From a virus: DNA of 21,159 nt. The notes below the pieces were generated by a model that was given only the letters and a program-made list of their open reading frames with translations, ran no database searches and was not told the DNA's origin. Below are positions 1,540 through 8,461 of the stretch, one piece after another (the first letter of the stretch is position 1; the number at the start of each line of letters is the position of its first letter). The position numbers and the translations under genes are program-made. Where the stretch lies: IMG/VR virus record IMGVR_UViG_3300032235_000310, positions 1 through 21,159 of that record. One strand, written 5' to 3'.

Positions 1540-2115
1540 ATGGCGAAGGGGTCTGGGAAGCGATTAGACGGGGCAGGAACGGGGTCCAAGACAATTGTGA
1601 CCCCGGAGTACCTCGCAGCGTGCGAGGCTGTCAGCGAGGCTCTAAAGCCGCTTGATAGAGTGGCGGTCGAAATGGAAGCGAAGTGGGGCGTTGGGAGACT
1701 GACGCGGCTGGTTCCGCCGGACGTTGCCGCCTTGTTCGGTTCCGCCAAGGCGAAGCTGGATCAGGCCATTTTCGCGAACGACCCGGCAGAAGTGGCGAAG
1801 CGAGCCGCTGTTCTCATTCGCGGCTGGCAAAAGCTGGATCAGGTCGCGACCGAGCTGGAAGCCGACAAGCTGCCCGTGCGAACGGTCGGCGTAAGCTTCG
1901 AGGGCAAGGCGTATCTGATCGCGTGGGATAGGGCCGATGTTTCGCACGCGGCGCGCGTGTCCGGCGTCTCCCCGGAGAACGTGGTGACGGTTCATGAGCT
2001 TCTCACGGCTTACGAGGTGCTAAAGGGAAGGATTGCAGGGGTTAAGCAAGCTTTCCCCGGCGCGGAAGTGACAAGGGTCAGCATTCCGCGCGGGGGTGAT
2101 GAGTTGGGGTTTTAG
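1540..2115 (+). CDS. Hypothetical phage protein, 191 residues
   Basis: The family is not recognised. The protein begins MAKGSGKRLDG, has a helical central part (about residues 22-110, with ALKPLDRVAVEMEAKWGVGR and two similar KLDQA/KLDQVATELEA segments), and a mixed C-terminal part ending GGDELGF. The ATG at 1540 is chosen because AGGAGGGG at 1527-1534 lies five bases before it; the GTG at 1534 is too close to that site. Positioned between the regulator unit and the leftward mini-gene cluster, it belongs to the early/accessory part of the genome. Its start is only 32 bp from the divergent 29-residue frame, leaving no room for two full promoters between them. The 3' end meets the convergent gene at 2123 with a short GC hairpin between. 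Confidence 0.65.
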   Translation: MAKGSGKRLDGAGTGSKTIVTPEYLAACEAVSEALKPLDRVAVEMEAKWGVGRLTRLVPPDVAALFGSAKAKLDQAIFANDPAEVAKRAAVLIRGWQKLDQVATELEADKLPVRTVGVSFEGKAYLIAWDRADVSHAARVSGVSPENVVTVHELLTAYEVLKGRIAGVKQAFPGAEVTRVSIPRGGDELGF

Positions 2116-2117
2116 GG

Positions 2118-2130
2118 GCGCGTCACGCGC
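2118..2130. terminator. Short hairpin between convergent genes (possible weak terminator)
   Basis: GCGCG-TCA-CGCGC followed by TTT sits exactly between the two convergent genes, and its loop is the stop codon of the leftward gene. Five GC pairs with a three-base T tail give at most a weak terminator for the rightward gene. Confidence 0.3.
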
Positions 2131-2371
2131 TTTCGAGCATGTGCGAAGCAATCTCGTGCCAGTTCACTTCGCCAAGGAAGGCAAGCGCGTAATCACGGGC
2201 CAAACCTTTGCTTTGCGAGTTTATAACCTCGCGGCAGTAGTGGCTTAGCTCCGCAACCAAGTCGCGCACGTTGTCGCAACCGATTTCCGCCGCGCTCATG
2301 CCGTGGATCATTTCGAGATTGACGCGCCATGTGGCGTAGTTCGTCCAGCCGTTGTGTGTTTCGTTCGTCAT
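2123..2371 (-). CDS. Small conserved phage protein (NGWTNYATWRVNLE type, DUF7249-like)
   Basis: This 82-residue protein starts MTNETHNGWTNYATWRVNLE. The NGWTNYATWRVNL signature is widespread in small proteins of phages and plasmids (the DUF7249-type family in my memory), with no established function. The body is helical with conserved Trp, His and Cys residues (HYCREV, EVNWHEIASHML). It is the last gene of the leftward three-gene cluster. AAAGG lies eight bases before the ATG, and the shared 25-nt leader element lies just upstream. Its first three residues and the bases around its start (GACAATGAC) match those of the next gene, pointing to a duplicated expression cassette with different coding contents. 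The family call is fairly secure; the role is unknown, presumably host takeover or early regulation. Confidence 0.75.
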   Translation of the reverse strand: MTNETHNGWTNYATWRVNLEMIHGMSAAEIGCDNVRDLVAELSHYCREVINSQSKGLARDYALAFLGEVNWHEIASHMLESA

Positions 2372-2385
2372 TGTCTTAGCCTTTC

Positions 2386-2410
2386 ATGTTGCGCCTGTGT
2401 GGTGGCGACT
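2386..2410 (-). promoter_or_regulatory. Leader element copy A (AGTCGCCA-N7-GGCGCAACAT)
   Basis: On the minus strand the conserved 8-base and 10-base blocks flank a variable heptamer, CCACACA. CGCC and GGCG can pair to a short stem whose loop varies. It ends 14 bases before the ATG of the gene at 2371, directly ahead of its ribosome binding site. It is one of three copies in this cluster. Confidence 0.65.
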
Positions 2411-2420
2411 TGGGGAGTGT

Positions 2421-2441
2421 GCGCCGCTTGTTCGGCGGCGC
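2421..2441 (-). terminator. GC hairpin between mini-genes (copy A)
   Basis: Perfect 7-bp inverted repeat GCGCCGC/GCGGCGC with a 7-base loop, located between the stop of the gene at 2452 and the leader of the gene at 2371. No T-run follows on the minus strand, so it may be a pause, RNA-processing or stability hairpin rather than a full terminator. A nearly identical hairpin lies at 2732-2752. Confidence 0.45.
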
Positions 2442-2451
2442 TTGTTAGGTA

Positions 2452-2682
2452 TTAGGCGAAAAGTTGCAGGTGTGACTTTATCGCTGGGCCTTGAGCGTTG
2501 TTGCATATTTCCAGCAAGTGCTCGGCGTCGTCTAAGTTTTGTATCCCATGGCACAGAACTCGATCACACCCGCCAACATTATTGTTTTCTAAATAGATCG
2601 AGTAGGGCCAGCCCGACACGCCGCGAATGTGCTCGCCGTTGTCGCCTTCGCTGCCAATCTTAAACTTGCCTGCGTTCGTCAT
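2452..2682 (-). CDS. Hypothetical small phage protein, 76 residues
   Basis: The product (MTNAGKFKIGSEG...) is not recognised. It contains GWPYSIYLENNN and CDRVLCHGIQ, then a helical stretch (DAEHLLEICNN) and three Cys residues, giving the look of a small alpha/beta fold. The ATG at 2680-2682 is chosen within a longer open frame because AGGAG stands seven bases upstream and the leader element copy B lies immediately before it; the longer frame would run through the neighbouring gene. It is the middle gene of three leftward mini-genes. The start context GACAATGAC matches that of the gene at 2371. Function unknown; position suggests an early accessory protein. Confidence 0.65.
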   Translation of the reverse strand: MTNAGKFKIGSEGDNGEHIRGVSGWPYSIYLENNNVGGCDRVLCHGIQNLDDAEHLLEICNNAQGPAIKSHLQLFA

Positions 2683-2695
2683 TGTCTTGCTCCTA

Positions 2696-2720
2696 ATGTT
2701 GCGCCAGTTCGTTGGCGACT
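2696..2720 (-). promoter_or_regulatory. Leader element copy B (AGTCGCCA-N7-GGCGCAACAT)
   Basis: Second copy, with variable heptamer ACGAACT; here the stem gains a fifth pair (CGCCA/TGGCG). It is followed by TAGGAG and the ATG of the gene at 2682. Conserved upstream bases TCCCCA are shared with copy A. Confidence 0.65.
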
Positions 2721-2731
2721 TGGGGAAGGTT

Positions 2732-2752
2732 GCGCCGCTTGTTAGGCGGCGC
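2732..2752 (-). terminator. GC hairpin between mini-genes (copy B)
   Basis: GCGCCGC-N7-GCGGCGC, the same stem as at 2421-2441 with one base different in the loop. It lies between the stop of the gene at 2926-2762 and the leader of the next gene. No T-run follows, so its role as a terminator is uncertain. Confidence 0.45.
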
Positions 2753-2761
2753 GGGGTTAGA

Positions 2762-2926
2762 TCAAAAAAGCGGGACAACTGACCAATTGTCGAGCGACTT
2801 GTTCCGGCTCTGGTAGGCCAAGTCTCGAAGCGCCGCATGGGCGCGTTCCTCGGTCGCATATACCTTGATCTGATTGCTCCAATCGGACTTGAGCGACCGG
2901 CCTGACTTCATGCGAATGATCCACAT
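2762..2926 (-). CDS. Hypothetical very small phage protein, 54 residues
   Basis: The product begins MWIIRMKSGRSLKSDW and continues KVYATEERAHAALRDLAYQSRNK, consistent with a beta strand pair followed by a helix. No family is recognised. The ATG at 2924-2926 is chosen over an upstream in-frame ATG at 2983 because AGGAG lies seven bases before it and leader element copy C directly precedes it; the longer version would translate that element and the operator. It is the first gene of the leftward cluster, directly downstream of the candidate promoter and operator at 2975-3026. Small proteins in this setting are often host-takeover factors, but nothing in the sequence proves that. Confidence 0.65.
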   Translation of the reverse strand: MWIIRMKSGRSLKSDWSNQIKVYATEERAHAALRDLAYQSRNKSLDNWSVVPLF

Positions 2927-2939
2927 TTTCGTTCTCCTA

Positions 2940-2964
2940 ATGTTGCGCCGTTGCGGTGGCGACT
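2940..2964 (-). promoter_or_regulatory. Leader element copy C (AGTCGCCA-N7-GGCGCAACAT)
   Basis: Third copy, with variable heptamer CCGCAAC, followed by TTAGGAG and the ATG at 2926. Unlike copies A and B it has no GC hairpin upstream but follows the operator/promoter region. Confidence 0.65.
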
Positions 2965-2974
2965 GATGATGAAT

Positions 2975-2993
2975 ATAGGGCAATGCGCCCTAT
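2975..2993. promoter_or_regulatory. Perfect inverted repeat (operator candidate)
   Basis: ATAGGGC, five bases, GCCCTAT: a perfect 7-bp inverted repeat just downstream of the candidate leftward -10 box, so it would cover the transcription start. Typical placement for a repressor operator; the small helix-turn-helix protein encoded at 1186-1416 is one possible ligand (inference). Confidence 0.5.
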
Positions 2994-2996
2994 GTG

Positions 2997-3002
2997 TATA
3001 AT
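2997..3002 (+). promoter_or_regulatory. TATAAT -10 box, rightward candidate
   Basis: A perfect TATAAT on the top strand, but no recognisable -35 box at 16-18 bp upstream, where the palindrome ATAGGGC lies. It could serve an activator-dependent promoter for the terminase operon. It overlaps the leftward -10. Confidence 0.25.
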
Positions 3003-3026
3003 CGTTTGTTCCTATCGTTTGGGCAA
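2998..3026 (-). promoter_or_regulatory. Candidate leftward promoter of the mini-gene cluster
   Basis: On the minus strand TTGCCC (3026-3021) and GATTAT (3003-2998) are spaced by 17 bp, each 4/6 to consensus. It points into the three-gene leftward cluster and is followed at once by the perfect operator-like palindrome at 2975-2993. Confidence 0.35.
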
Positions 3027-3045
3027 AATTGATAGGTGAATGAGT

Positions 3046-3070
3046 GGGTGACGGGATGGGCGGGTTCGGG
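3046..3070 (+). other. Five-run G-tract (potential G-quadruplex)
   Basis: GGG runs occur at 3046-3048, 3053-3055, 3058-3060, 3062-3064 and 3068-3070, with spacers of 4, 2, 1 and 3 bases, meeting the usual G3+N1-7 rule. It lies in the non-coding control region 54 bp before the small terminase start. Confidence 0.5.
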
Positions 3071-3081
3071 TTAGAAATGTG

Positions 3082-3099
3082 CTTGTGATATTTCACAAG
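3082..3099. promoter_or_regulatory. Perfect inverted repeat before the terminase operon
   Basis: CTTGTGATATTTCACAAG contains 7-bp perfect arms with a 4-base centre. It ends 24 bp before the ATG at 3124. It may be an operator or, in RNA, a hairpin near the ribosome binding site. The core TGTGA-N4-TCACA differs from the CRP consensus, which has N6. Confidence 0.5.
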
Positions 3100-3123
3100 T
3101 TGCAAAGAGTTGAGGGCTACAGA

Positions 3124-3636
3124 ATGGACGCGACGGAAGCCTTGCCAGTTGTGAGGGACAGCAAGGGGCGCGTGGCGAAGGGATCTGCGCTCAATCCGGG
3201 CGGTCATACCGCACGCGAAGCGAGGATGCTGCGGGATCTGCGCGCGCTCGGCCCGCGTGCGATTGCGCGGCTCGGAAAGCTGCTGGACGACCCGAACGGT
3301 TCGGTGGCTCTCGGTGCTGCCAAGGAGATCCTCGACCGTAACCTTGGAAAGGTTAAGCAACAGGTGCAAGTTGACGTTACATCAACCCACGTTTTGCATC
3401 TGGAGGCGTTACAACACCTCGCGGAGAAGAAGAAGCGCCAGGTGCTAGAAGCGCAAGCTACTGAAATCCAAAGCAATGCGACCCTTTATATAGAAGGGTT
3501 GCGCGGCAATGACGTGGTCGAGGCCGAGGTGGTTGAGCCGGATAACACTAGCGAGGCCGGAACACCCCCCGCACCCCCCGAAGGGCCGGGGGCGGCTGCA
3601 GATGCACCCACCCCACCCGCTACCCACAAAAAATAG
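3124..3636 (+). CDS. terS: Terminase small subunit-like protein (DUF5681-type N terminus)
   Basis: The 170-residue protein starts MDATEALPVVRDSKGRVAKG and has LNPGG right after. A short basic segment of the form RDxKGRFxKGxSxNPGG is typical of DUF5681 proteins, which often sit just before large terminase genes. The middle (ARLGKLLDDPN, VALGAAKEILDRNLGK) is helical, as in DNA-recognising small terminase subunits. The tail is rich in Pro, Ala and Glu and probably disordered. The ATG at 3124 has GAGG eight bases upstream; a GTG at 3079 is in frame but would translate the palindrome. The packaging role, recognising the DNA for the large subunit, is inferred mainly from its place 38 bp before the large terminase gene. 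Confidence 0.7.
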   Translation: MDATEALPVVRDSKGRVAKGSALNPGGHTAREARMLRDLRALGPRAIARLGKLLDDPNGSVALGAAKEILDRNLGKVKQQVQVDVTSTHVLHLEALQHLAEKKKRQVLEAQATEIQSNATLYIEGLRGNDVVEAEVVEPDNTSEAGTPPAPPEGPGAAADAPTPPATHKK

Positions 3637-3654
3637 ACAACCCCCACCCCCCCC
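3607..3654. other. C-run tract between small and large terminase genes
   Basis: CCC/CCCC runs at 3607-3609, 3611-3614, 3616-3618 and 3623-3625, then five C at 3641-3645 and eight C at 3647-3654. The first part encodes the Pro-rich tail of the small terminase; the last two runs are intergenic. The bottom strand could form a G-quadruplex. The octamer run is also a place for slippage or sequencing error. Confidence 0.5.
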
Positions 3655-3674
3655 TATGGGCGTAGGAAAACCCC

Positions 3675-5066
3675 ATGGCCCAAAAAAATACATTCATAGA
3701 ATTTATCGAACTCTACGGGGACGACCCTGTGGGCTTCGTGAAGAACGTGCTCGGGGCGCAGCCGCAGCCGTGGCAGGAGGAGTTCCTTCGCAAGATCGCG
3801 AAGGGGGAGCGGCGGATAAGCGTGCGTGCAGGGCATGGCGTCGGGAAGTCGACAGCTTGTTCTTGGGCGCTAATCTGGCATCAATGCTGTAGATATCCAC
3901 AGAAATCTATCGTCACTGCGCCGACGGCGAGCCAGCTTTACGACGCGCTTTTCTCCGAGCTGAAGTCGTGGCTGAACAAGCTGCCGCCGGTACTGAAGGA
4001 CAGCTTCGAGGTCTTCAGCGACAAGATCACGTTCAAGGCCGCGCCTGAGAGCAGCTTCATCAGCGCAAGAACCAGCAGCGCGGAGAGGCCGGAGGCGCTG
4101 GCGGGTGTTCACTCAGAGCACGTCCTTCTGGTTGTGGACGAGGCAAGCGCGGTGCCGGAAGCTGTGTTCGAGGCTGCTGCGGGCTCGATGTCGGGACACA
4201 GCGCGACGACGATCCTGATCTCCAACCCGACGCGAAACAGCGGGTTGTTTTACAAAACGCACCATGAGCTGGCTTCCGATTGGAACCGGATGCACGTCAG
4301 CTGCATCGACAATCCGTTGGTTGCGGAAGATTTCGTTCGTCAGATTGACTCTACCTATGGCCGCGACAGCAACGCGTTTCGGATACGTGTTCTTGGCGAG
4401 TTTGCGTTGGGGGATGACGACACCCTCATCCCGGCTGATCTGGTTGATAGCGCGATGACGCGGGACATCACGGTTAGCGCGACCGAGCCGATGGTCTACG
4501 GGGTGGACGTTGCGCGGTATGGCACTGACAGGACTGCGCTGTGTAAGCGGCGTGGGAATGTCGTGATCGAGATCAAGTCCTGGGGCGGTTTGGACTTGAT
4601 GCAGACGGTTGGCGTGATTGTGAACGAAGCGAAGCTGGATTCGCCGGAAGAGATTTGCGTGGACACGATTGGCATGGGCGGCGGTGTTGCTGATCGTCTT
4701 CGTGAGCAGGGCTTCAACGTGCGGGATGTGAACGTTTCGGAGAGTTCCGCGATGAACCCGAACGCCTATAGGCTTCGAGATGAGCTTTGGATGACGGTCA
4801 AGGACTGGTTGACCACTAGAGCGGTGAAGTTGCCGAAAGATCCGACGTTAAGGCATGAGCTTGTTGCACCGCGATATCACTTCCGCAGCGACGGCCCTCT
4901 CATTGTTGAGTCGAAGGACTCGATGCGGAAGAGGCGGATGCGGTCGCCTGACTTGGCGGATGCGTTGTGCCTGACTTTTGCGGGCAATGCTGCTATGGTT
5001 GGTGGGCGTGGTTACCATTGGAAACCTGGGAAGCCATTGACTCGTTCTATACGGGGTATTGTGTGA
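3675..5066 (+). CDS. terL: Terminase large subunit (packaging ATPase/nuclease)
   Basis: This 463-residue protein is the ATP-driven motor that cuts concatemeric DNA and pumps it into the prohead through the portal. Walker A is GHGVGKST at residues 53-60, Walker B LLVVDEA at 151-157, and the coupling motif region is ISNPT at 182-186. The C-terminal RNase H-like nuclease has its metal-binding acids in YGVDVAR (Asp 278), ICVDTIG (Asp 330) and SPDLADAL (Asp 426/429). Length and motif order are normal and the gene looks intact. AGGA lies about eight bases before the ATG at 3675. The stop overlaps the next start in TGATG, indicating translational coupling with the following small gene. Confidence 0.95.
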   Translation: MAQKNTFIEFIELYGDDPVGFVKNVLGAQPQPWQEEFLRKIAKGERRISVRAGHGVGKSTACSWALIWHQCCRYPQKSIVTAPTASQLYDALFSELKSWLNKLPPVLKDSFEVFSDKITFKAAPESSFISARTSSAERPEALAGVHSEHVLLVVDEASAVPEAVFEAAAGSMSGHSATTILISNPTRNSGLFYKTHHELASDWNRMHVSCIDNPLVAEDFVRQIDSTYGRDSNAFRIRVLGEFALGDDDTLIPADLVDSAMTRDITVSATEPMVYGVDVARYGTDRTALCKRRGNVVIEIKSWGGLDLMQTVGVIVNEAKLDSPEEICVDTIGMGGGVADRLREQGFNVRDVNVSESSAMNPNAYRLRDELWMTVKDWLTTRAVKLPKDPTLRHELVAPRYHFRSDGPLIVESKDSMRKRRMRSPDLADALCLTFAGNAAMVGGRGYHWKPGKPLTRSIRGIV

Positions 5067-5782: not shown

Positions 5783-8461
5783 GTGTCCGACATTGATCTG
5801 AAGACGCTTCCGCCGGACACGAATATCCCGACGACCGGCTATCTGTTCGGTGCGGACAACCAGACGACGAATACGCCGAGCGTGTACCCCGTGACTGTGG
5901 TTGCGGATGCAGTCGTTCAGATCATTGGTAACCTTGTTGGCCCTACCGGCCCTGCTGGCACGGCTGGGCCTACGGGGCCGACGGGAGTTGCGGGGGCAAC
6001 TGGGGCTACTGGTCCAACCGGTCCTACAGGGGCTGCTTCTACCGTTGCTGGACCTACCGGACCGACGGGTGTTGCGGGGGCTACTGGACCTACCGGCATT
6101 GGCGGCCCTACCGGCCCCACTGGCTCGCCCGGAGATGGCATCACCTACAAGGGAACGGTTGCCACGGTAGGCAATCTTCCTTCGTCTGGTAATGCTGCGG
6201 GTGACGCGTATGTCGTCACCGCTGACAATCATTTGTACATCTGGAACGGCTCTGTCTGGACCGACGCAGGACTTGTTTCAACCGGGATTACCGGTCCTAC
6301 CGGTCCTACTGGGCCGACGGGTGCTGCGGGGGCTACTGGAGGTGTCGGTCCTACCGGGCCAACTGGCGCGGCTTCTACGGTTGCCGGACCAACTGGGCCT
6401 ACGGGTGCTTCCGGTACGTCCGTTGGCCTGACGACATTCCTTGACGGCGCCACGGCTACCGGGCCGCAGGCTTACAATCTTCTTGTCGTCCCCAATACCG
6501 GGACGCAGACGACCCTCACCCGCACGACCAATTCCAGCTCCGGTGTGCTTCTCGGCTCGTTTGTCACGCCTGCTGGCGTCCCGAGCAACACGTCTTTCGT
6601 GGGCGGGCTGTGGACCCTCCACGCTTGGATAAGCCATCAAGCAGGCGGCAACACCTTCCGCTTCTGGATTGAGGTGCAGGAAGTCGCGTCGAACGGGACT
6701 ACGGTTCTCCAGACCCTTGCGACTGGAGATTATGCTTCTGGAACTCCTGTTACGTCCGCAACAGCGTCGATACTTGAGTCCGATCTATTTGTCCCGTCTT
6801 CTACTCTGGCAAGCACGTCAAGCCGCATCCTTGTGAACGTCTACGTGCAGGCCCAGAGCGGAACGCCTGACGCGATCCTCTACATGCGCGGCAATACGCA
6901 GTCCCATGTTGTGACGACGATTGCGTACAATGTGGCTGGGCCTACCGGGCCGACTGGACCTACCGGAGCATCTCCTACTGTTGGCGGCTCCACCGCGCAG
7001 ATCCTGTACAACAACGCTGGTTCCATTGGCGGCGTTTCGACCTTCACGACGGATGGAACTTCGCTTACGCTAAGCGGTTCAACGTCGGGTAATTTATTCA
7101 GGATTACGCAGACGGGTTCAGGTAATGCTTTCGTTGTTGAAGACGAAACGAACCCTGATAGCACGCCTTTTGTAGTGACAGCGGCGGGGGATGTTGGCGT
7201 CGGAACGTCGTCGCCCACCCGTAAACTCTCCGTAGACGGCGGAAACCTGTCGGTAACGAACGCCACCTACGCCTTTGCGGAAATCAACTCCGGCACTGTT
7301 CAGGGGCAGTTTGCGGCAAATGCGGGCGGCACATTAGACATCCGCGCGGTGTCTAATCACGCGATGTTGCTGTATACCAACAACACCGAGCGCGTGCGGA
7401 TCGACACGTCCGGGAACGTGGGCGTCGGAACGTCGTCGCCCACGACAAAACTAGACGTTGCCTCTGCTGGCACGACATCCACCATCATACAGACGCGAAA
7501 CGGGACAACCAGCGTCTACCTCGACGCCAATAACGGGTACTCCTACCTTAACACCTTTACCAACCACCCCATGTTGTTCGGCACGAACAACGCCGAGCGT
7601 ATGCGCATCGCCGCCTCCGGGAATGTCGGGATTGGAATTAATGCCCCTCTTTTCAAGTTGGATGTCAGAGGCGGCGACGGAACCATTGGAAACTTCGTTG
7701 GCGCTGGGGGGAGTTTCCACGGTCTTGCTGTGTCAGCGTCCGACGCCTCGGCGTCAAATTATCGTGGGATATTTTACGACGTTCGTAACGAGAATGGCCT
7801 CCCTGTCGCCAATATGTTGGCAGATGTACTTACAGATGGGGGTTCGGCTTGGGCTTGGACCACCGCCCCAGCAGGTTCTCGCACGTCTGATCGACGTGTC
7901 GAGCGTATGCGCATTACGGGCGACGGCAACGTGGGCATCGGGACTTCAACTCCCGACGTGATCCGCTTGCGTGTAAAGGGTGTGAACACAACGAGTTCGA
8001 ACTTCGCTTTTTACGCGGAAAACTCGGCCAACGCAGATTTATTCTACGTCAGAAACGACGGTTTTATCGCAACCGGCACGGGTGCAAACTCCCCGTTTAA
8101 TTTAACAACCGGTTCGGCGGCAAATCTGGTTATTTCAACTGGTGGTGTGCTTTCTCGCTCCACGTCTTCTATCAAGTACAAGACAGATGTTCAGGCGGCG
8201 ACCCACGGCCTTACCGAACTCATGACCCTTCGCCCCGTCACCTACAAGGGCAAGAACGACGGGGATACTGTCTTTGGTGGTTTGATTGCTGAAGAGGTTC
8301 ATGCAGCGGGCCTGACTGAGTTTGTGCAGTACGCGGACGATGGGTCTCCAGACTCTCTAGCTTATGGGAACATGGTCTCTCTCTGCATCAAGGCCATCCA
8401 ACAGCAGCAGGCTCAGATTGGAGACCTCAAGGTTCGCGTCGCAACTTTGGAGGCACGCTGA
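5783..8461 (+). CDS. Collagen-like tail fibre with S74 intramolecular chaperone
   Basis: This 892-residue protein is a probable receptor-binding fibre. Residues 1-52 are likely the virion anchor. Gly-Pro-Thr collagen-like blocks occur at about 53-117, 170-211 and 385-396. A module found in many fibres (ITYKGTVATVGNLPSSG, then DAYVVTADNHLYIWNGSVW) lies between the first two. Residues 212-384 form a beta-rich domain. Four NVGxGTSSP-KLxV type repeats follow near 472, 546, 615 and 716. The last 100 residues are an S74 chaperone of endosialidase: Ser795 and Lys800 align with the self-cleavage Ser/Lys pair, with ALRPVTYK-like and FGGLIAEEV motifs and a C-terminal coiled coil. The chaperone assembles the trimer and then cuts itself off. 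The start is GTG at 5783 with GGAGA six bases upstream. Confidence 0.9.
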   Translation: MSDIDLKTLPPDTNIPTTGYLFGADNQTTNTPSVYPVTVVADAVVQIIGNLVGPTGPAGTAGPTGPTGVAGATGATGPTGPTGAASTVAGPTGPTGVAGATGPTGIGGPTGPTGSPGDGITYKGTVATVGNLPSSGNAAGDAYVVTADNHLYIWNGSVWTDAGLVSTGITGPTGPTGPTGAAGATGGVGPTGPTGAASTVAGPTGPTGASGTSVGLTTFLDGATATGPQAYNLLVVPNTGTQTTLTRTTNSSSGVLLGSFVTPAGVPSNTSFVGGLWTLHAWISHQAGGNTFRFWIEVQEVASNGTTVLQTLATGDYASGTPVTSATASILESDLFVPSSTLASTSSRILVNVYVQAQSGTPDAILYMRGNTQSHVVTTIAYNVAGPTGPTGPTGASPTVGGSTAQILYNNAGSIGGVSTFTTDGTSLTLSGSTSGNLFRITQTGSGNAFVVEDETNPDSTPFVVTAAGDVGVGTSSPTRKLSVDGGNLSVTNATYAFAEINSGTVQGQFAANAGGTLDIRAVSNHAMLLYTNNTERVRIDTSGNVGVGTSSPTTKLDVASAGTTSTIIQTRNGTTSVYLDANNGYSYLNTFTNHPMLFGTNNAERMRIAASGNVGIGINAPLFKLDVRGGDGTIGNFVGAGGSFHGLAVSASDASASNYRGIFYDVRNENGLPVANMLADVLTDGGSAWAWTTAPAGSRTSDRRVERMRITGDGNVGIGTSTPDVIRLRVKGVNTTSSNFAFYAENSANADLFYVRNDGFIATGTGANSPFNLTTGSAANLVISTGGVLSRSTSSIKYKTDVQAATHGLTELMTLRPVTYKGKNDGDTVFGGLIAEEVHAAGLTEFVQYADDGSPDSLAYGNMVSLCIKAIQQQQAQIGDLKVRVATLEAR
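5939..6415 (+). repeat. Collagen-like GPT repeat blocks
   Basis: Degenerate 9-base units encoding Gly-Pro-Thr/Gly-Ala-Thr fill 5939-6133 and 6290-6415, with a short third block at 6935-6969. Codons vary between units, so selection is on protein rather than recent DNA expansion. In phage fibres such triplets form collagen-like trimeric shafts. Confidence 0.85.
7196..7443 (+). repeat. 23-bp exact direct repeat within fibre gene
   Basis: The same 23 bases, starting GGCGTCGGAACG, occur at 7196-7218 and 7421-7443, encoding GVGTSSPT in two successive fibre modules. The near-identical DNA in a region where the other two modules have diverged suggests recent duplication or recombination between modules. 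Confidence 0.7.

Follow-up and report, generated by a model that had tools for sequence, protein, structure and literature searches.

The locus raises the question of why three unrelated small genes should each begin with the same leader. The window, that is, the whole stretch of DNA analysed here (viral record IMGVR_UViG_3300032235_000310, 21,159 bases, probably incomplete), carries on its minus strand small gene 1 (2762–2926, 54 aa), small gene 2 (2452–2682, 76 aa) and small gene 3 (2123–2371, 82 aa). The first two have no family match, while the third is DUF7249-like, scoring just under the family cut-off and having relatives in other phages. The pattern AGTCGCCA-N7-GGCGCAACAT occurs exactly three times in the window, always on the minus strand and with a start codon 19–20 nt downstream: as copy A (2386–2410), copy B (2696–2720) and copy C (2940–2964), the last lying 19 nt from the ATG at 2926 when measured from its stem. 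The first-pass annotation had reported these three copies and held the coding parts to be unrelated, and on both points we agree with it; the two blocks are exact and the gap is 7 nt in every copy. Shuffled windows, in which up to three mismatches were allowed, gave a mean of 0.03 matches and none contained three, which rules out a chance origin. The 21,159-base record holds no further copy.

Pattern scans of 2.9 million viral contigs returned matches of two sorts, those in close relatives of the window phage and those in other contexts. The latter lay mostly inside what is probably coding sequence and had no ribosome-binding site at the spacing to be expected, and the idea that the element is widespread among phages is ruled out across these contigs, genuine copies being confined to the close relatives. 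These were located through the DUF7249 protein and the terminase, the terminase search yielding 21 loci with a TerL identity of 68–92% and, in addition, one 75-residue end fragment at 100%. No described phage matched the window at the DNA level. Its TerL is nearest to those of uncultured phages, and the three records with the most similar TerL (MW202711, MW202496 and Sinorhizobium phage phiM5) contain neither the element nor the promoter palindrome described below. A scan of host genomes with TerL found no more than two contigs, one in a Reyranella MAG (62%) and one in a Rhodobacteraceae bin (56%), and a tRNA search found none. The element-bearing phages are a podovirus-like group, probably with a host among the Alphaproteobacteria, the host assignment following from phiM5 (TerL 68%) being the nearest described isolate. 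Elsewhere in the window, positions 5783–8461 encode a protein of 892 aa whose GPTGPTG repeats are collagen-like and whose C-terminal part looks, by eye, like an endosialidase chaperone; it is a probable tail fibre or spike.

In all, 15 stem-bearing copies were found in seven records including the window, every one of them in the orientation of its gene and with the start codon 17–22 nt from the stem; the records are all uncultured and mostly incomplete, and the copies are kin to each other, so that these counts are not independent. Beside the three copies of the window there are four in G001 (IMGVR_UViG_3300031951_014582), two in G006 (3300043449_000941), and one each in G002 (3300032227_001069), G007 (3300042938_001120) and G009 (3300010354_000362), that of G009 having another loop, while G012 (3300043427_001768) has two clear copies and, in addition to these, one with another loop and one without a stem. 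Over 487 kb, a covariance model recovers the 13 copies from which it was built at E ~1e-6 or below and gives no other convincing match; a weak one in L014 (E 0.006) was set aside, the next annotated-looking start being some 50 nt away downstream. Inspection of the translations by eye suggests that the element stands ahead of no fewer than 12 different gene families. The expectation that further copies would sit just before start codons is thus upheld among the relatives and disappointed in the rest of the window's own record, and one to four copies per record, in one small leftward operon, give no support to the genome-wide regulatory sequence that had been envisaged. A protein that by eye resembles the sliding clamp of DNA polymerase is found among the small early genes, in L067 as the first gene after the minus-strand promoter at 3002 and in L011 at 3309–3968; in G006 the leader of this gene has the hairpin.

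The relatives also allow the proposed CGCC/GGCG stem to be assessed by comparison, and paired changes in them back it. In the window, copy A has the stem CGCC/GGCG with the loop region ACCACACA, copy B has a 5-bp stem, CGCCA/TGGCG, around the hexaloop ACGAAC, and copy C pairs CGCC (2961–2958) with GGCG (2949–2946) around the loop region ACCGCAAC, its fifth position being a mismatch. The stem is CGCC/GGCG in 13 copies and CGCG/CGCG in two copies of G012, where the fourth pair has changed from C-G to G-C. The fifth position is an optional pair that covaries, being C-G, A-U, G-C (in G009) or a mismatch; G006 lacks both bases of this pair, and its loop, ACACAC, sits directly on the fourth pair. 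Standard pairs fill 93.7% of the structure cells, whereas shuffles reach 83.6% and sliding the partner leaves no more than 54%. Since compensated pairs are few (two), this support for the structure is good and not overwhelming. Two full intergenic leaders fold better than their shuffles (z of -3.2 and -2.8), and the promoter-proximal copy C, taken alone, folds no better than its shuffles (z of 0.35). The heptamer between the blocks, which had been taken to vary freely, resolves in 13 aligned copies into one base of the fifth pair and a constrained hexaloop, [AC]C[AG][AC]A[AC], found in 13 of the 15 copies, in which C2 and A5 are invariant, T never occurs and G is seen only at position 3. No known RNA family was recognised: a search of the window against Rfam 15 at gathering scores came back empty, as did one of 2100–3150 at E values up to 1.

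An inverted repeat may also be a DNA operator for a dimeric transcription factor, CGCC/GGCG being a dyad whose symmetric changes would fit a DNA site too. Three features favour RNA over a DNA dyad: the strong strand asymmetry of the loop, the single orientation of every copy relative to its gene, and the fall in half-site spacing from 8 to 6 bp in G006. The operator reading also has to contend with internal copies that have no promoter and with the presence, at the promoter, of a separate and better palindrome, and we consider it highly improbable.

This promoter lies just upstream of copy C, on the minus strand at 2972–3000, and is sigma-70-like (TATACA-17-TATATT); it is the only promoter-like site in 2100–3150, where 0.5 would be expected, and a promoter scan at copies A and B found no such site. 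Between its -35 and -10 hexamers sits the palindrome TAGGGC-GCATT-GCCCTA (2976–2992). The same arrangement recurs at the other promoter-linked copies, namely three in G001, G006_1, G007 and G009 (where the hexamers are TTGACA and TATACC): the stem-loop follows the palindrome TAGGGC-N5-GCCCTA by 12–14 nt and the -10 hexamer by 8–10 nt. From the usual -10 spacing, we infer that transcripts start 2–4 nt before the stem at these copies. G005 has a symmetric variant, TAGGAC-N5-GTCCTA, ahead of a leader of the same family that has lost its stem. A search of 484 kb of relatives for exact TAGGRC-N5-GYCCTA gave eight sites, all of them ahead of a stem-loop or, in G005, of this related leader (window 2976–2992; L025 at 124, 523 and 893; L063 at 9666; L066 at 15301; L067 at 3002; L068 at 12866). 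A conserved block, CACCTATCAATT...CGATAGGAACAAACGATTA, occupies the minus strand at 3001–3046 and is found again in G001 (three times), G005, G006 and G012; most of the palindrome-bearing promoters have it. Written as CCTATCAATT...CGATAGGAACAAACGATTA, this block upstream of the proposed operator is seen to contain nested inverted repeats.

The palindrome is most simply read as the operator of a repressor. The first-pass annotation, which did not list it, had suggested that the leader element might be the binding site of a regulator; such a role is likely for this separate palindrome and possible for the hairpin. A candidate for its binding is a 76-aa helix-turn-helix protein, starting at TTG, encoded on the minus strand at 1186–1416. 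Two small helix-turn-helix proteins, that of the window and one in L025 at 7546–7821, are common to the phages with the element and did not turn up in those sampled that lack it; as evidence for a repressor this co-occurrence is weak, because it follows the clade.

The remaining copies are internal to operons (A and B in the window, G001_5, G002, G006_2 and two in G012) and have no visible palindrome. Those of the window, of G002 and G012_i1 come after a C-rich linker, itself preceded by a gene-end hairpin, GCGCCGC...GCGGCGC. In the window, on the minus strand, this hairpin reads GCGCCGC-CTAACAA-GCGGCGC at the junction of genes 1 and 2 (2732–2752), with the same stem in G001, G002 and G012, and GCGCCGC-CGAACAA-GCGGCGC at the junction of genes 2 and 3 (2421–2441). 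The hairpin has no T run and is not a standard terminator. It also occurs at the ends of unrelated small genes in L011 (about 2576–2598) and L025 (about 1707–1728), and its sequence partly resembles that of the leader hairpin. An integron cassette, which would have attC with RYYYAAC/GTTRRRY boxes, was considered and rejected on reading the intergenic sequence: GCCTAAC is present in the gene-end hairpin, and the partner GTTRRRY box is missing.

The pairing of the two hairpins around a C-rich linker at several junctions, together with the position of the leader hairpin at the early transcript start, would suit an RNA site for antitermination, like a nut boxB, or for processing, in which a cut between the gene-end and leader hairpins would yield single-gene mRNAs. 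Against such a site, a boxA-like run, CGCTCTTT, occurs in one copy only (G001_2), the operon yielded no intrinsic terminator, and three internal copies have no gene-end hairpin. Either role seems very unlikely.

The junctions also bear on how the element has moved. Copies A and B share a longer module that runs from the gene-end hairpin through the C-rich tract and the element to the first 10 bases of the gene (ATGACGAACG), and this extension into the genes points to copying of the whole junction; copy C is unlike them in its upstream part, where the promoter and palindrome lie. The element may be mainly a relic of recombination: intergenic modules would be copied between small genes, would offer homologous stretches for shuffling and, the ribosome-binding site apart, would have no function. 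In keeping with this, leaders match among relatives while the neighbouring genes differ, and the DUF7249 gene has the leader element in the window and lacks it in G002. Set against these observations are the diverged copies, whose paired stem changes and retained loop point to selection, and the MARN... gene, which has the hairpin in three phages, promoter-linked in G007 and operon-internal in G006 and G012, with compensated stem changes, so that the hairpin has been kept with its gene across contexts. We regard a mere relic as improbable. The suggestion of a dispersed mobile cassette fares unevenly for the same reasons: it is at odds with the MARN... gene and agrees with the gain and loss of the element by other genes. 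Absence of the hairpin takes several forms, one gene of G001 having the gene-end hairpin and no leader hairpin, and the leader of G005 and one of those in G012 retaining the sequence with the stem lost.

Our preferred reading, to which we give about an even chance, is a two-tier module that would combine a repressible early promoter with a cis-acting leader hairpin serving mRNA stability and translation initiation. The first tier would be the sigma-70-like promoter, whose spacer is the palindromic operator, which would allow a DNA-binding repressor to silence the operon. The second would be the hairpin of 4–5 bp, CGCC(N)/(N)GGCG, with its hexaloop, 17–22 nt ahead of the start codon. With a transcript start 2–4 nt before the stem, the mRNA would begin with the hairpin, and a 5'-terminal hairpin could hinder decay that depends on the 5' end while the ribosome-binding site stays free. 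The leader hairpin of T7 gene 10 is thought to act in this manner, impeding decay and keeping the ribosome-binding site free. An internal hairpin might instead keep upstream sequence apart from the ribosome-binding site that follows, or else form a new 5' end after processing. Several observations sit awkwardly with the two-tier module: the poor folding of copy C taken alone, the genes that lack the element and the two related leaders that have lost the stem. Moreover, only RNA processing would bring the internal copies to a 5' end, and a mere stabiliser has no need of invariant loop bases.

These loop bases are the main reason why a reader acting in trans stays a serious rival. A phage or host RNA-binding protein, or a small RNA, might recognise the loop and switch the translation of the genes jointly, which would account for the invariant C2 and A5 and for the absence of T in 13 copies despite the paired stem substitutions of G012 and the lost pair of G006. 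A single leader ahead of many unrelated genes would suit a common regulator, and T4 RegA, which represses about 30 mRNAs at the translation start (PMC3014915), offers a precedent. We found no candidate RNA-binding protein, however, and the small genes exclusive to the element-bearing phages include the helix-turn-helix proteins, which suggests DNA binding; moreover, as the copies are few and related, a loop of A and C may have been inherited in common or been selected to stay unpaired. A trans-acting reader is possible on these grounds, if less probable than the cis-acting hairpin. In its boldest form, which we hold to be rather doubtful, the hexaloop would be read by a dedicated phage factor, giving a translation-level regulon over shuffled small genes on top of a repressible promoter and a convergent, RNA-structure-based counterpart of the SAS/ESAS system of mycobacteriophages.

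No part of phage genomes is understood less well than the small accessory genes. If a portable leader lets unrelated small genes plug into a single operon, it would account for their being exchanged while control is maintained, and the leader sequence is a marker by which they may be found.

Several known systems bear comparison with the module. Lambda-type nut sites (boxA/boxB), which lie in early phage leaders, likewise have a small hairpin whose loop is conserved; our copies, by contrast, have no boxA in common, and the hairpin is repeated for each gene and adjoins the ribosome-binding site. The leader of T7 gene 10 is transcribed by T7's own RNA polymerase, differs in sequence and has no operator, and its stem-loop is not known to recur, with a conserved loop, in internal leaders. 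It is, as here, a hairpin in a phage 5' leader right after the promoter and ahead of the Shine-Dalgarno sequence, a position that fits the promoter-linked copies, 8–10 nt past the -10 hexamer, if transcription starts where predicted. Placed before the Shine-Dalgarno sequence in Cupriavidus necator, this stem-loop raised reporter protein 1.5–3-fold and also raised the mRNA level (PMC6146998); it is the best tested parallel. T4 RegA resembles a trans-acting reader in exerting a single post-transcriptional control over many early phage genes (PMC3014915), but its sites are A+U-rich, unstructured and at or beside the start codon, whereas the window element is a G+C-rich hairpin upstream of the Shine-Dalgarno sequence.

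The comparison first proposed, with cluster K mycobacteriophages, proves apt. There the SAS is a 13-bp element beside the start codon, with or without an ESAS (PMC3203893), and the ESAS was later found to carry a SigA-like promoter and an inverted repeat, for which repression was proposed (PMC11373665). In both systems a start-proximal element stands before many unrelated genes, and an upstream unit of promoter and inverted repeat is optional. The SAS, GGGATAGGAGCCC, is asymmetric, extends past the ribosome-binding site, is not described as a hairpin and serves 13–19 genes per genome, whereas ours is a hairpin upstream of a separate Shine-Dalgarno sequence, in one to four copies per record, with unrelated sequence and in unrelated phages. 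On reading the leaders, the 13-mer GGGATAGGAGCCC (two mismatches or fewer, 3–9 bp before starts) is absent, the leaders running AGTCGCC...GGCGCAACAT and then TAGGAG or GAAAGG; and where an ESAS would have a 17-bp imperfect inverted repeat and a SigA-like promoter, a subset of our copies has a promoter with TAGGRC-N5-GYCCTA, unrelated in sequence and shorter. Membership of the cluster K Mycobacterium siphoviruses is ruled out by a TerL nearest to uncultured phages and, among isolates, to phiM5. As judged from sequence, the module is one that would work like SAS/ESAS and is not a member of that family. The recurrence of this two-tier layout in phages unrelated to cluster K points to a general solution, and it offers a second system, one whose RNA structure is defined, in which the role of the SAS can be tested.
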